Of a stretch of DNA of 52,602 nucleotides, positions 46,267 through 52,048 are shown piece by piece. Source of the DNA: Nitrospinota bacterium. Lineage in GTDB: Bacteria > Nitrospinota > Nitrospinia > Nitrospinales > VA-1. The notes below the pieces were generated by a model that saw nothing but the letters and a program-made list of their open reading frames with translations, did not search any database and was not told the DNA's origin. Position 1 is the first letter of the stretch, and the number at the start of each line of letters is the position of its first letter. A program made the translations under genes and the position numbers. The stretch covers positions 1 through 52,602 of the forward strand of contig JAQCGX010000025.1 of NCBI GenBank assembly GCA_027619975.1, read 5' to 3'.

Positions 46267-46950
46267 ATGACGGACAATCCGGTAATAAAATTTAATAAGG
46301 TCAGCAAATATTATATGGCGGGCGGCACTCGCGTCACCGCGCTCAAGAGCGTCGATATGGAATTGCACTCGGGAGACTTTGTCACCGTCATGGGACCCAG
46401 CGGCGGCGGCAAGACCACCCTGCTCAACTGCATCGGCGGGCTGGACGCGCCAGACGAAGGCGAAATATTCCTCAACAACCGTTTGATCTCGAAAATGAGC
46501 GACCGGGAATTGACGCAGTTACGCCGCCAGGAAATCGGATTCGTGTTTCAGTTTTTCAATCTCATGCCCACTTTGACCCTTTGGGAAAATGTGGAGCTTC
46601 CCCTGCTGTTAAGCCATTCCTCAAAAACTGATGACAAGAGGATTCACACGTTGCTGGAATATGTGGGGCTTCAGAACCGGGCGCAATCCTTCCCGGCGGA
46701 ATTGTCCGGCGGAGAAATGCAGAGAGTCGCCATCGCCAGGGCGCTGGTGCATCAACCGGCTATCATCCTGGCAGACGAACCCACCGGCAACCTCGACTCG
46801 GAAAACGGGACCAAAATTCTGGAGTTGATGAAAAAGGTATCGGTCGAATTTCAAACCACACTTGTAGTGGTCACACACAACCCGCAAATCGCTTCCTACG
46901 GAAATTGTCATTTTGAAATCCGCGATGGGGAATTGACCCAAAAAGAATGA
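46267..46950 (+). CDS. ABC transporter ATP-binding protein, LolD/MacB-like
   Basis: A 227-residue ATPase. Walker A is GPSGGGKTTLL near residue 45, the signature LSGGEMQRVAIARAL is near residue 142, and Walker B is IILADEPTGNLD with the catalytic glutamate. This three-piece pattern is the LolCDE/MacB subgroup, which moves lipids, lipoproteins or peptides across the periplasm. The ATGA overlap with the permease shows coupling. Confidence 0.92.
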   Translation: MTDNPVIKFNKVSKYYMAGGTRVTALKSVDMELHSGDFVTVMGPSGGGKTTLLNCIGGLDAPDEGEIFLNNRLISKMSDRELTQLRRQEIGFVFQFFNLMPTLTLWENVELPLLLSHSSKTDDKRIHTLLEYVGLQNRAQSFPAELSGGEMQRVAIARALVHQPAIILADEPTGNLDSENGTKILELMKKVSVEFQTTLVVVTHNPQIASYGNCHFEIRDGELTQKE

Positions 46951-49526
46951 ACTTTCTTTTTTATTTCAAGGATCTGTTCACCGCCCTCATCCTGCGCCCT
47001 CTCCTGCGCGATCCGTTTCGCACCGGCGTCACTATTCTGGGCGTGGCCATTGGCGTCGCGGTATTCTTAAGCATCCGTCTCACCAATGCGCAAACCATGC
47101 TTTCGTTTCAGGAAAGCGTCGATCTCGTTCTTGGAAAATCCAACGCAGTGATCCATGCCGAGGGCATGAGTTTTGACGAAAATCATTTCAAAAAACTCCT
47201 CACTCTAAGAGAATGGATCAAAGTCTACCCGGTGATAGAAGGTTACGGCGTGGAATCCAGCACGGGCGAAGTTGTAGAGATCCTCGGAACCGATCTATTG
47301 CAGGACAGCGGCATTCGCGATTTTTCCCTCAAGACGGTAGAGCCGGACTTGAAAGGCCTGCTCCCCATCATCCTGGACCCCAAAGGCATCGTCCTGCCGG
47401 AAAAATTCATCCCCGTAACCCGGTTTCAGCCGGGCGACAGTATTCGGTTCCTGGTCAACGGCCAACCTCGAGACTTGAAAGTTACAGCCGTGTTGGAAAA
47501 TAAAGGCATCGCAAAAGCGTTAAACGGCAATTTCGCCATGATGGATATCGCCGCCGCTCAGTTGGCTTTGAACAAATTGGGCAAGCTCGACCGTATCGAC
47601 GTGGAGTTCCTTAAAGACACCGATTTTGACCGCATGCAAGCAAAGATCGCCACAGTACTGCCGGATTTTCTCAACATCGACCGCCCGGACAGAAAAAACA
47701 AACAGGTGGAAAAAATGCTCAGGGCGTTCCAGTACAACCTGACGGCATTGAGCTTCGTCGCCCTGCTCGTCGCGCTTTATCTGATCTACAACATGATCGC
47801 CCTGTCCGTCGTCCGCCGCCGCATGGAAATCGGCACGCTTCGGGCCTTGGGAGCGACACCTACGCTTATAGCCGTCATCTTTTTTCTGGAAGCCGGGATC
47901 ATCGGTACGGCGGGATCGTTTCTGGGAATCGGGCTCGGGTATTATTTCGCCCAGTTTTCACTGGACGCGGTCACGCTCACGATCAACAACCTGTATGCGC
48001 CCAGCTACGTGACAGAAGTGGATTTCCACTGGCAAAAAATGTGGCCTTATGTCGTTTTAGGCATCGGGCTCTCTCTGGTTTCGGCTCTCATTCCGGCTTA
48101 CGATGCGGCCAAAACATCGCCCACCCTGGTGATGCGCCGTGGCAGTTACGATCTCAAACTGTTTCGCGGCAACCGCAAGCTGAATCTGTCTGCGCTCCTG
48201 ACGATACTTCTGTCCGCCGGGTGTACGCAATTGCCGGCCATCAATAATTTCCCCTATTTCGGGTTTCTGTCGGTCTTCCTGCTCATTCTGGGGTTGTCCC
48301 TGCTGTCGCCCTCGGCGCTTCTTCTGGCCCGTCGCCTCCTGCATGGATCGTGCAAAAAGTTATTTGGCGGCGAAGGTCTGCTCGCCAGCATGAACCTCTC
48401 GCAAAATGTCGGACGCAACTCGCTGGCGGTTTCGTCTCTGGCCATTGCCTTCATGATGGTCATCAGCATGTCGATCATGGTTCACAGTTTCAGAACAACG
48501 GTAATCGTCTGGATCGGCCAGACGTTACGGGCGGATCTGTTTGTCCGCATCGCCGGGGGCCGTGACATCGATTACCAGTACACCCTGCCCTCGGATCGCG
48601 TGAAGCAACTGAAACAGATTGCGGGAGTCGCCGCGATCGACCAATTCCGGGCCATCGATATTTCATACAACGACAAGCCCGTGGTTTTAGCGACAGGGGA
48701 TTTCTCGGTGCTTTCGCAATTTGGAAACCTGGTGATCAAAACCGGCCCCCCAGCGCAGGAACTGGACCGCTGGATGGTCGGACACAACCGGGCCATCGTC
48801 TCCGAAGCGTTTTCTCTCAAGCACAAGGTGAAGACAGGAGACCGTTTACACCTGACAACACCGGGCGGCCCGCTGGATGTTGAGATTATCGCTGTGTATT
48901 TCGATTACTCCCGCGAACGCGGCTACATCATCCTCGATCGGACGACGTTTCTGAAATATTACCAGGACCCGGCCATCAACAGCTTTATCATTTATCTTGC
49001 GGATAAAAACCAGCTCACAAACGTTCGTAAAAACGTGTTGAACACCATCGGCAAAGATTATCAACTCGTCATCCGCTCGAATGCGGAACTGAAAAAAGAC
49101 GTTCTTGACGTGTTCGACCGAACCTTCGCCATCACCTACGCCCTGGAAATCATCGCCATTGGCGTTGCGGTATTGGGTCTTTTCAACACCCTGATATCTC
49201 TCATTCTGGAGCGCAAGCGCGAGGTTGGAATTTTGCGCTTTCTGGGCGCGTTTAAAGATCAGGTCAAGCGCGTGGTGTTGATCGAGGCGGGGATATTAGG
49301 TTTGATCGGGTCGGGCATGGGTTTGATCGCAGGGGTGATCGTTTCCTACATCCTGATCTTTGTCATCAACAAGCAGTCCTTCGGCTGGACCATTCAGGTG
49401 CATTTCCCTTATCTGTTTATCCTTCTCACCACCCTCCTCTTTTGGGTAGTTTCCACATCCGCCGGGCTGTATCCTGCCCGTCTCGCCGCCAAACTCAACC
49501 CGAAAGAAGCCGTGCGGGTGGAATAA
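46947..49526 (+). CDS. FtsX-like ABC permease, 859 residues, two FtsX domains
   Basis: A membrane protein with one N-terminal span, a periplasmic MacB-PCD-like domain (about 45-250), three spans (about 270-400), further spans at about 415-520, a second periplasmic domain (about 530-720), and three last spans (about 735-855). Two FtsX/MacB-type modules are thus fused, so one chain could serve as a full permease dimer. The segment RRRMEIGTLRALGATPTLIAV and the matching ERKREVGILRFLGAFKDQV are the coupling helices. It works with the ATPase above; the cargo is unknown. Confidence 0.88.
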   Translation: MNFLFYFKDLFTALILRPLLRDPFRTGVTILGVAIGVAVFLSIRLTNAQTMLSFQESVDLVLGKSNAVIHAEGMSFDENHFKKLLTLREWIKVYPVIEGYGVESSTGEVVEILGTDLLQDSGIRDFSLKTVEPDLKGLLPIILDPKGIVLPEKFIPVTRFQPGDSIRFLVNGQPRDLKVTAVLENKGIAKALNGNFAMMDIAAAQLALNKLGKLDRIDVEFLKDTDFDRMQAKIATVLPDFLNIDRPDRKNKQVEKMLRAFQYNLTALSFVALLVALYLIYNMIALSVVRRRMEIGTLRALGATPTLIAVIFFLEAGIIGTAGSFLGIGLGYYFAQFSLDAVTLTINNLYAPSYVTEVDFHWQKMWPYVVLGIGLSLVSALIPAYDAAKTSPTLVMRRGSYDLKLFRGNRKLNLSALLTILLSAGCTQLPAINNFPYFGFLSVFLLILGLSLLSPSALLLARRLLHGSCKKLFGGEGLLASMNLSQNVGRNSLAVSSLAIAFMMVISMSIMVHSFRTTVIVWIGQTLRADLFVRIAGGRDIDYQYTLPSDRVKQLKQIAGVAAIDQFRAIDISYNDKPVVLATGDFSVLSQFGNLVIKTGPPAQELDRWMVGHNRAIVSEAFSLKHKVKTGDRLHLTTPGGPLDVEIIAVYFDYSRERGYIILDRTTFLKYYQDPAINSFIIYLADKNQLTNVRKNVLNTIGKDYQLVIRSNAELKKDVLDVFDRTFAITYALEIIAIGVAVLGLFNTLISLILERKREVGILRFLGAFKDQVKRVVLIEAGILGLIGSGMGLIAGVIVSYILIFVINKQSFGWTIQVHFPYLFILLTTLLFWVVSTSAGLYPARLAAKLNPKEAVRVE

Positions 49527-49578
49527 AGCCTTCCAAGAAAATAGTCGGAGTAATATACTGATAAAAATTCCAGAGAGA

Positions 49579-50616
49579 TTGAAAATGCCATCTATCGGCA
49601 AAGTTCTAGACATTCTAAGATACTGGGGAAGGGAGGACCTAGTAAGGATACTTGATAATTCAGAGATCAACTTCGAAATTTCAGACTCTTATGGGAAGAT
49701 GGCTAAATTTTCCCGGCTAACCACAGTTGAAATTTTTTCTTCCATCCAAAATTGTGAACGTCTGCGAGCTCTTCTCTCAAATGATCAACAGTTAATTATT
49801 AAAGCTTTCTTGGAAATCTATCCTCCAAGAGAAAATGACATTGAAATTTGTGACCTGAAATTTGTTGTCAACCAAGAAGCACCTACGGCACCAGAACCTG
49901 CTATGAAACAATTAATTAAAGAGATTGAGGCTCAACGAAATTTGATGATAGCTGTATCTACAGGGGGTCCTAGGATACAAGAAGTTAATCATGAGTATGA
50001 TAATAGGCGAAGACAGATTCAATCCAACCTTTCTCAACTGCACATCGATGATCCTAACCCCTATGGAACCCTTTGGGAATGGTATGGTAAATGGAGTAGT
50101 GGTGATTTACCAACCTACCAATCTCGTCGATTATATATTAACGAGCTTTATAACCCACTTCTCGATAGGCTTTCCAAGGGAACTTTGATTGATGAAACCT
50201 CACTTCGAGAACCAACTGGATGGGCTCGCGTTGATCGATGTTTGGACAAAGTCCGAATTCAGTTGGAACGATCTTCAACTGAAGAAGATTTCCAATCTGT
50301 GGGGCTCCTTTGTAGGGAAACTCTTATTTCTCTTGCACAGGCAGTATATGATCCTAAAAATCATAGCACCAGTGATGGAACTGTTCCAAGTAAAACCGAT
50401 GCGAAAAGAATGCTGGAAGCCTTTATTGAGAAGGAACTTTCAGGAGGAAGTCACGAAGCTACGCGGAGGCACGCGAAAGCATCACTTCAACTTGCCAATG
50501 ATGTTCAACATCGACGAGACGCTCAATTCCGTGATGCGGCTTTATGCGCCGAAGCAACTTCGTCCGTAGTTAACGTAATTGCAATAATTTCTGGACGACG
50601 AGATCCCGTCAATTAA
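49579..50616 (+). CDS. Accessory protein of unknown function, compositionally distinct
   Basis: A 345-residue soluble protein. A compact N-terminal domain (about 1-95) is followed by a linker and a helical region from about 160, with a WEWYGKWSSGDLPTYQSRR segment and a C-terminal part with LLCRETLISLAQAVYDP, TDAKRMLEAFIEKELSGGS and ANDVQHRRDAQFRDAALCAEAT. The last part reads as an intact conserved domain, possibly of HEPN-like helical type (RRHAK and QHRR stretches), but I cannot name it with confidence. The gene is visibly more A/T-rich than its neighbours. It is flanked by an ABC permease and a porter gene, with no mobile genes. Horizontal acquisition is likely. A defence-related role is speculation. 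Confidence 0.55.
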   Translation: MKMPSIGKVLDILRYWGREDLVRILDNSEINFEISDSYGKMAKFSRLTTVEIFSSIQNCERLRALLSNDQQLIIKAFLEIYPPRENDIEICDLKFVVNQEAPTAPEPAMKQLIKEIEAQRNLMIAVSTGGPRIQEVNHEYDNRRRQIQSNLSQLHIDDPNPYGTLWEWYGKWSSGDLPTYQSRRLYINELYNPLLDRLSKGTLIDETSLREPTGWARVDRCLDKVRIQLERSSTEEDFQSVGLLCRETLISLAQAVYDPKNHSTSDGTVPSKTDAKRMLEAFIEKELSGGSHEATRRHAKASLQLANDVQHRRDAQFRDAALCAEATSSVVNVIAIISGRRDPVN

Positions 50617-50632
50617 ATTGGGATTTGGACCA

Positions 50633-52048
50633 TTACTGGTAGGAAACGTGCAATTTCTTGAAGGATTGCAAAAGCAACAGGCACAAACAAACCACAATTG
50701 CGTAGCCGCCGATGATTCTAAAAAAATCCTGGGCACTCACCAGACTGTAGGCGGTTAAAAAGAACACCGCCCCGACATTTCCATAAGCCCCGGCCATGCC
50801 CGCCATTTTTCCCGTCAGGTCTTTGCGGATGAGCGGCACGGCGGCAAAGCAGGCTCCGTTTCCCGCCTGCAGAAATACCGAACAGGTAATCGCCAGCAGA
50901 ATCACCCACCCCAGGTGCCAGCTGGCGTTTATTTCCCCCATAGCCCAAAAGCCTGCCAGGGCTCCAAGAACTAAAACCGCCAAGGTCTGCCTTCTTCCAA
51001 GCAGGTCGGACAACCAACCGCCGCTGGGCCGGGTGATCAGGTTCATCACCGCAAAGCTCGAACCCAAAATACCGGCAGTGGCCACTGAAAGACCAAAGGT
51101 GGTTTCCAAAAATTGCGGAAACATGGAAACCACGGCCAACTCCGCTCCAAAAGTCAGCGCGTAAACCAGACTTAGAATAAATATCTGCCGGAATTCGTAG
51201 TGTTCTTCTTTGGGGATGGCTCGTTTAAGGTTCGGCAAATTAACGCGGAGGGACTCTACCAAATTCAAGAAGAAAATTCCGCTGACACCGGCATAAAGCA
51301 GCAGGGTGACGTCCTGTGAAAATAGCGGCGACGACAGCGCGGATAATTTCCACACCAGAGCCAGGAGGGAACCGTAAACAGGAAGCATCAATACGATCTG
51401 TAAAATTAGATCCTTGCGGGACGTCACCTCAATGGAGTGAATCAGGCTGACCTTGAAATCGCGCCCGCGGTCGGGAATTTCTACAGCCCATTTCCAGTAG
51501 ACCCCGGCCCAGATCAGACACAACAAGCCGGAAAATGCCGTAGCCGCCCGCCAACCCATTTCTTCGGGAAACAACAGCGCAACGACAGGCAGGGAAAATG
51601 CCGCGGCGGCGGCTCCAAAATTTCCCCATCCGGCATAAATCCCCTGGGCGATTCCCATTTTTTCCGGCGGAAACCATTCGGCGATCATTTTGATTCCGAC
51701 CACAAAGCCAGCGCCCACGATGCCCATCAGCAGACGGGCAATCAGAAACTCAAAAAACTGGGTGGACGTGGCAAAATAAAAACAAACTGAGGCAGCAAAC
51801 AGCAGCAGACCACAGAACACCTTTCTCGGCCCGTGACGGTCGACCAGGACGCCGATGATGATCCTTGCGGGTATCGTCAGAGCCACATTGCAGATCATCA
51901 GGATTTCGATCTGATCCAACGACAGGCCCACCTGCTTCATGATCGTGGTGTTGAACGGGGCCATGTTGAACCAGGCCACGAAGGTCAAAAAAAAAGCGAC
52001 CCACGTCAAATGCAGGGCGCTTTTCTGCTGATCACTGAATCCAAGCAT
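50633..52048 (-). CDS. narK: Nitrate/nitrite porter, NarK family (MFS)
   Basis: A 471-residue polytopic protein with about 12 spans. The nitrate/nitrite porter signatures are GAGFVVGIKMIAEWFPPEK and GIYAGWGNFGAAAAA in the first half and QAGNGACFAAVPLIRKDLTG followed by GAYGNVGAVFFL in the second. Direction and choice between nitrate and nitrite cannot be read from sequence. No nitrate or nitrite reductase/oxidoreductase genes are in the window. The start has no clear ribosome site. It lies 28 bases after the small lipoprotein gene on the same strand. Confidence 0.88.
   Translation of the reverse strand: MLGFSDQQKSALHLTWVAFFLTFVAWFNMAPFNTTIMKQVGLSLDQIEILMICNVALTIPARIIIGVLVDRHGPRKVFCGLLLFAASVCFYFATSTQFFEFLIARLLMGIVGAGFVVGIKMIAEWFPPEKMGIAQGIYAGWGNFGAAAAAFSLPVVALLFPEEMGWRAATAFSGLLCLIWAGVYWKWAVEIPDRGRDFKVSLIHSIEVTSRKDLILQIVLMLPVYGSLLALVWKLSALSSPLFSQDVTLLLYAGVSGIFFLNLVESLRVNLPNLKRAIPKEEHYEFRQIFILSLVYALTFGAELAVVSMFPQFLETTFGLSVATAGILGSSFAVMNLITRPSGGWLSDLLGRRQTLAVLVLGALAGFWAMGEINASWHLGWVILLAITCSVFLQAGNGACFAAVPLIRKDLTGKMAGMAGAYGNVGAVFFLTAYSLVSAQDFFRIIGGYAIVVCLCLLLLQSFKKLHVSYQ

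Follow-up and report, generated by a model that had tools for sequence, protein, structure and literature searches.

An A/T-rich gene stands alone between two transport genes in a 52,602-nucleotide stretch of Nitrospinota DNA (the window, one whole contig of its genome), raising the question of how it came to be there and what its protein does. The gene is present at positions 49579-50616 of the forward strand as an ORF of 345 aa counted from TTG 49579, with an 85% identical copy in another genome of the genus (G027). Before it lies a permease (46947-49526, forward strand), whose G027 orthologue matches the Pfam families FtsX and MacB_PCD, and after it, on the reverse strand, an ORF (50633-52048) which we take to be a NarK-like MFS nitrate porter. 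These are the neighbours, an ABC permease and a nitrate porter, that an earlier, sequence-only reading of the locus had described. That reading had also called the gene an A/T-rich single-gene island with odd codon use, and the comparison of codon usage with the flanking genes that it proposed bears this out. Set against 42 other window ORFs (mechanically chosen, non-overlapping, at least 120 aa), the gene ranks lowest of the 43 in GC (0.415, against a mean of 0.507 and sd of 0.025 for the others; z -3.7), in GC3 (0.31, against a mean of 0.60; z -6.9), and in codon-usage likelihood (z -7.2), whereas both flanking genes are of ordinary composition.

Translation probably starts at ATG 49585 rather than at TTG 49579, giving a product of 343 aa, since the ATG lies 7 nt downstream of a Shine-Dalgarno-like AGAGAG (49572-49577). 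The G027 copy has, on inspection, an identical TTG-AAA-ATG layout after CAGAGATA. The TTG and the ATG are 52 and 58 bp past the permease stop, respectively, and the gap to the convergent porter is 16 bp. The 5′ intergenic stretch (49527-49578, forward strand) also contains a TATACT (49554-49559) and may serve as a promoter; a promoter scan did not flag it.

Comparison within the genus, represented by five genomes (the window's own, G000, together with G024, G025, G026, and G027), points to insertion of a single gene. The sequence-only reading had allowed for homologues of normal composition at the same place in most relatives, but the gene occupies the permease-porter site in only two of the five genomes, G000 and G027, and both copies are A/T-rich. 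The gap without the gene measures 71 bp in G025 and 70 bp in G026. Across the 77 genomes of the phylum, relatives were found in the same two genomes of this one genus. The 52-53 bp preceding the two copies align with each other (score 26, reached by none of 1000 shuffles), whereas alignments with the two empty sites score below zero, so that the insert appears to consist of one gene and its own upstream stretch. A chimeric contig is an unlikely source of the insert, because G027, a separate assembly, shows the same arrangement. DNA identity between G000 and G027 is 86.1% in the gene, above both the porter (71.3%) and the end of the permease (78.8%), which suggests a likely transfer between lineages, although one left unproved, since A/T bias at third positions increases the identity expected by chance; slower evolution of the gene could also inflate its identity relative to the flanks. 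An origin by transposon or integrase is unsupported, as none occurs among the flanking ORFs inspected, and intergenic alignments at the site, read by eye rather than with a dedicated repeat search, showed no target duplication. In G024, the permease-porter gap holds another gene, of 210 aa (L018:866-1495), presumably MarC-like, and the convergent gap apparently takes different single genes.

The inserted gene does not look like debris. A genome collection scan returned 57 loci, including G027's own copy (L022), and in four of them the ORF is split across two frames, as might be expected of a decaying, functionless mobile-element remnant. For the window gene, this explanation is very improbable: between the window and G027 copies dN is 0.083 and dS 0.456, with similar constraint across three domains, and the two proteins differ at 51 amino acids with no indel. 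The resulting dN/dS of ~0.18 indicates a gene maintained under purifying selection and not decaying. The window's own genome holds a second, diverged copy (G000:C3:18879-19595; L002:1168-2226; 352 aa, GC 0.42, GC3 0.37) among ordinary-looking neighbours, which is 51% identical to the window protein over residues 105-342 and has an N-terminal region with a DNWNGG pattern as in Bacteroidota forms.

Family searches gave the protein no name. It matched nothing in Pfam, PADLOC, or NCBIfam up to E 10, nothing among PDB sequences, and only weak noise in PHROGs (0.21 and 0.24); a housekeeping domain, which the sequence-only reading had considered as a possible outcome, is thus absent as far as the three family libraries go. 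We recognized no description of the family in the literature searched, which took in few subscription journals and no supplements.

Structure prediction was more informative. An AlphaFold2 model (mean pLDDT 90.5) was built from an alignment of 42 sequences (A3: 41 of the 57 loci plus the window, leaving out ORFs that were broken, cut off, or of another architecture, as well as several near-duplicates). It divides into three parts, residues 1-98, 106-205, and 212-340, which are individually modelled without their mutual arrangement being fixed (whole-model pTM 0.49). The first is alpha/beta, the second helical (helices at 106-199), and the third a set of five helices (214-337). The sequence-only reading had posited a two-part protein: both domains that it proposed, a distinct N-terminal one and a coherent helical C-terminal one, appear in the model, and a middle domain had been overlooked. 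One database match was rejected against this model. The A3 profile hit CFA/I fimbrial subunit chains among PDB sequences (best E 2.9e-5), with no single stretch significant by itself. We judge the match an artefact because it covers profile positions 71-150, where two domains meet, and because the model there is not beta-rich as a fimbrial subunit would be.

The N-terminal domain (residues 1-98; 49579-49872, forward strand) is the variable part of the protein. It is modelled in the order helix-helix-strand-strand-helix-helix-strand, and structure alignment to PDB chains finds a fold like that of SirA, a DnaA-binding sporulation protein (4tps_B; Z 8.3, rmsd 2.3, 77 residues). The likeness concerns the fold of this domain alone, the window protein having no SirA Pfam match up to E 10. 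In profile comparison, a Rhizobiales form (prob 95.5) and a Bacteroidota form (prob 90) connect to the window form and two other N-terminal forms do not (prob 14.9 and 0.1), and six of the 42 rows of A3 have fewer than 30 residues in the region.

As judged from profile comparison, the middle helical domain (about residues 106-205; 49894-50193, forward strand) provides the firmest tie to proteins annotated as abortive-infection (Abi), being homologous to the front half of Abi_C proteins. With hhalign, A3 matched an alignment (A7) of eight plasmid homologues, all annotated "abortive infection family protein", at prob 97.5, E 8.9e-12, and a score of 86.8, compared to at most 27.6 for 60 column shuffles and 19.1 for a reversed profile. 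An Abi_C protein from the same phylum as the window, L083, shares an ATGG ... Y-x-x-RR-x-x-I pattern, and in proteins of the L083/A7 type the homologous front domain reads ATGG ... RR-x-x-I-x-x-x-F-x-x-L-L. These proteins parallel the window protein in layout, ending in a helical Abi_C domain, but they lack its extra N-terminal domain and carry a C-terminal LRN-x5-H where the window protein has A-x4-H-x-R. The Abi_C domain (PF14355) gave no Pfam match on the window protein up to E 10 and is not among the families listed for the 42 homologues (25 of 42 families), and the C-terminal domain of the window family shows no sequence relation to Abi_C (A5, described below, against A7; hhalign prob 0.2).

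That C-terminal domain (residues 212-340; 50212-50598, forward strand) is predicted with high confidence to adopt a five-helix HEPN fold. Modelled alone with AlphaFold (pLDDT 93.2), it finds HEPN chains as its top PDB matches: 2hsb (Z 11.0, rmsd 2.9 over 113 residues), 3mfn (Z 10.3), 3o10 (10.1), 2q00 (9.7), and HEPN/HepT toxins down to 8.2, the first unrelated bundle being alpha-catenin at Z 8.1. The margin is modest, and the aligner cautions that helical bundles with Z below ~13, as all of these HEPN matches are, may reflect a common arrangement, but the agreement of many HEPN chains over ~110 residues is consistent. PDB titles of 3mfn, 2q00, 1wwp, and 1wty do not include the word HEPN; PMC3710099 counts 2q00, 2hsb, and 1wwp among HEPN proteins. 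Foldseek returned no match at E ≤0.001, and a viral structure library offered nothing convincing.

While the predicted fold is that of HEPN proteins, the active site would be an altered one. We aligned 41 C-terminal domains (A5: 40 of the 57 loci plus the window, including single-frame pieces of the split ORFs L030, L034, L075, and L077), and the catalytic HEPN motif Rx4-6H occurs in none of them. Instead, they carry a degenerate motif (50494-50511 in the window, forward strand) in which A306 takes the place of R and is followed by four residues and H311. Position 306 is A in 36 domains, T in four, S in one, and the canonical R in none, whereas H311 is found in all 41 and R313 in 39. R246, Q254, D274, and R296 (codon 50464-50466, forward strand) are likewise invariant in all 41. 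In a set of 13 proteins including actinobacterial plasmid homologues (A1), R296, A306, and H311 again never vary, but R246 and R313 do. The domain therefore resembles the HEPN superfamily (HepT toxins, AF0298/2hsb, Parep1-8/2q00, and sacsin HEPN) in its predicted five-helix fold and in a conserved H right before the last helix, and departs from it in missing the canonical R and in having no family-profile match.

Such departures have precedents: some accepted HEPN families lack the Rx4-6H motif, and the c2405 and Parep1/8 families keep H and not R (Anantharaman et al. 2013, PMC3710099), with other basic residues possibly substituting for R in Parep1/8 according to the same source. The c2405 family with AbiTii, characterized there as "Conserved H but lacks R" with fusion to an Abi domain, is alike by description only, and unlike it the window protein has no AbiTii (PF18864), which was also absent from the 77 phylum genomes and from 31 genomes of homologues. 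No sequence relation was seen between the C-terminal domain and the single Ymh protein compared. On a Roseomonas plasmid, a TIGR02391 (Ymh) gene lies directly before an AbiJ_NTD3-Abi_C gene (L101:180-1903).

Whether such a domain still cuts RNA is close to an even call, and we lean towards cleavage. In that case, the invariant H311 and a substitute basic residue would do the cutting, R296 being the most widely kept candidate. In a substantial minority of our expectation, which falls inside that of the preferred reading below, the domain would serve in a defence protein of the same architecture without being an RNase, either blocking translation by binding RNA or ribosomes or acting as a dimerizing scaffold. 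That none of the 41 domains keeps the R of Rx4-6H, having A, T, or S instead, fits this alternative, and motif-less HEPN proteins can be toxic and may act non-catalytically (PMC3710099). However, the invariance of H311, R296, R246, Q254, and D274 across the same 41 goes beyond what a scaffold needs, and HEPN families with altered motifs may retain catalysis, as the same source notes for some of them.

The distribution of the C-terminal domain is broad and patchy. Its tree (41 domains, from 40 loci and the window) spans 15 phylum labels and takes 18 label changes against a possible minimum of 14, in line with transfer while constituting, by the program's own account, no proof. Relatives occur in 27 plasmid records, four of which cover at least 80% of the query, whereas phage records and two scans of viral contigs yielded no homologue. 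At 43 of 53 loci, the GC of the homologue lies below that of its flanks, compared to 76 of 213 control ORFs. Different front domains also precede it: AbiJ_NTD3 (PF18860) does so in two of the 13 A1 proteins, one fusion being clear (L013, E 5.4e-52) and the other (L008) probable, as the gene is split across two annotated ORFs. The PADLOC candidate PDC-M01A matches two of the 13 A1 proteins, presumably this same pair. AbiJ_NTD3 is in turn joined to Abi_C in L101, so that two C-terminal domains with no detected relation in sequence, the one described here and Abi_C, each follow front domains of these two types. The window protein itself bears a different N-terminal domain, with no AbiJ N-terminal domain among its Pfam results (no family up to E 10).

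Gene neighbourhoods give a mixed picture. In gut Bacteroidota, Eco57I/TaqI_C type IIG enzymes end 7 bp (L067), 14 bp (L068), and 1 bp (L071) before the homologue. Aligned parts of these three enzymes share no more than 28% identity, which makes a single operon of recent inheritance an improbable source of the pairing. Also in gut Bacteroidota, BrxL ends 36 bp before the homologue (L059), a C5 methylase lies 93 bp before it (L074), and a TIR gene directly behind it overlaps it by 4 bp (L065). A SLATT_6-like gene 2 bp after the L067 homologue scores 26.8 against a Pfam cut-off of 27.1, and a MauJ match in one picked neighbour is also just below its cut-off (27.7 vs 28). In all, ten neighbours (seven upstream and three downstream) were picked at eight loci from 284 as close and same-strand, hence as examples and not a rate, and six of them carry a defence-type Pfam match above the cut-off, two fall just below, and two have none. 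The sequence-only reading had proposed looking for the C-terminal domain in defence islands, and a coarse near/far comparison lent that idea no support: 128 ORFs within 1.2 kb of the gene gave 232 PADLOC families and 128 random ORFs at least 4.5 kb away gave 335 (all ORFs at least 150 aa; the families are overlapping models, not protein counts), which shows no excess close to the gene and lends no support to a general enrichment. The neighbour sets drop L052, L054, L058, L061, and L072 as near-duplicates or fragments, the far set also drops L002, and in A4 two L002 ORFs were left out of 130. Pfam families in the near set were mostly single occurrences and many were ordinary (among 25 of 182 families listed).

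In the window itself, no defence gene adjoins the gene, which sits between two transport genes, and a cellular regulator without a defence role, such as an RNA-binding repressor resembling the HEPN regulator MtlR (PMC3710099), could be imagined in this position. We regard this as unlikely given the patchy spread, the foreign composition, the empty sites in congeners, the restriction-modification, BREX, and TIR genes close to some loci elsewhere, and the AbiJ_NTD3 fusion. Less probable still is the toxin of a two-gene toxin-antitoxin pair of the HepT/MntA kind. HepT/HEPN toxins of MNT pairs are among the best fold matches, but neither a nucleotidyltransferase/MNT antitoxin nor a small partner adjoins the window gene or its G027 copy, and no neighbour family defined by BLAST recurs beside more than three of 63 loci.

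Taken together, these results make it probable that the gene encodes a single-gene, Abi-type phage-defence protein with a HEPN-fold effector, acquired as a one-gene cassette; this probability covers both modes of action, cutting RNA or merely binding it, and the defence role is one we infer. The reading draws on the homology of the middle domain to Abi_C proteins, the resemblance of the C-terminal model to HEPN toxins, the AbiJ_NTD3 fusions, the six close defence-type neighbours, the patchy spread, and a one-gene insert with empty sites, low GC, and a dN/dS of ~0.18. The sequence-only guess of a defence or toxin-like protein thereby gains support, from the Abi_C-protein homology, the predicted fold, the fusion, and the linkage to restriction-modification and BREX genes. 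Several observations count against this reading as a whole: the absence of the HEPN motif in 41 of 41 domains and the loss of R246 and R313 from the set kept in all 13 A1 proteins; the lack of a sequence relation of the C-terminal domain to Abi_C, of a PADLOC excess, of an adjacent defence gene in the window, and of a phage or viral homologue; and, from the modelling, the lack of a Foldseek match at E ≤0.001 and HEPN Z values below ~13.

If the protein is an Abi-type defence protein, the likely sensor of a phage cue would be the variable N-terminal domain, possibly acting together with the middle one. These two domains would sense or restrain, the middle one being a module found in Abi_C proteins as well, and the HEPN-fold domain, to judge by its fold, place, and company, would attack or block RNA once released. 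The infected cell would then stop growing ahead of phage maturation. Tha, from Staphylococcus aureus prophages, can serve as a model for how a HEPN defence protein works: it has 301 aa, ends in a HEPN domain, leads to an abortive outcome, is triggered by phage tail proteins, and requires H270 for protection (PMC11087260). Compared by description, Tha is like the window protein in size and in its C-terminal HEPN, and unlike it in having a canonical R265-x4-H270 and no recognized N-terminal domain.

The known kind to which the protein would belong is that of Abi proteins with a HEPN-type effector, from which its effector domain and active site differ, as the domain lacks the defining features both of Abi_C and of canonical HEPN RNases. 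A bolder proposal, which we hold tentatively and at slightly less than an even chance, is that this C-terminal domain is the first of a new class of Abi effector that has spread widely by transfer. It would be a rewired HEPN (A-x4-H with an invariant R296 and often H-x-R) that takes the position of Abi_C after two or more kinds of defence front domain, AbiJ_NTD3 and the middle domain shared with Abi_C proteins, and that in gut bacteria has come to be used downstream of type IIG enzymes and BrxL. If the defence reading is right, the protein would add an unlisted effector domain to the abortive-infection kit and reveal effector swapping behind conserved modules. It would also provide a natural test of the residues that a HEPN RNase needs, with H kept and R not across 15 phylum labels, and a marker with which to search for defence genes left unnamed by the profile libraries used here.

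Further arrangements were seen among the homologues. In L073 and L078, two more N-terminal regions, neither with a Pfam match at E 0.01, precede the C-terminal domain in the same protein. Two actinobacterial plasmid homologues have erm genes nearby, L010 at ~1 kb and L015 at ~4.6 kb, and the L010 homologue overlaps a YfbU-family gene by 4 bp. On a Clavibacter plasmid (L016), the homologue is present twice, and the genes that flank it, a replication gene among them, recur in mirrored order.
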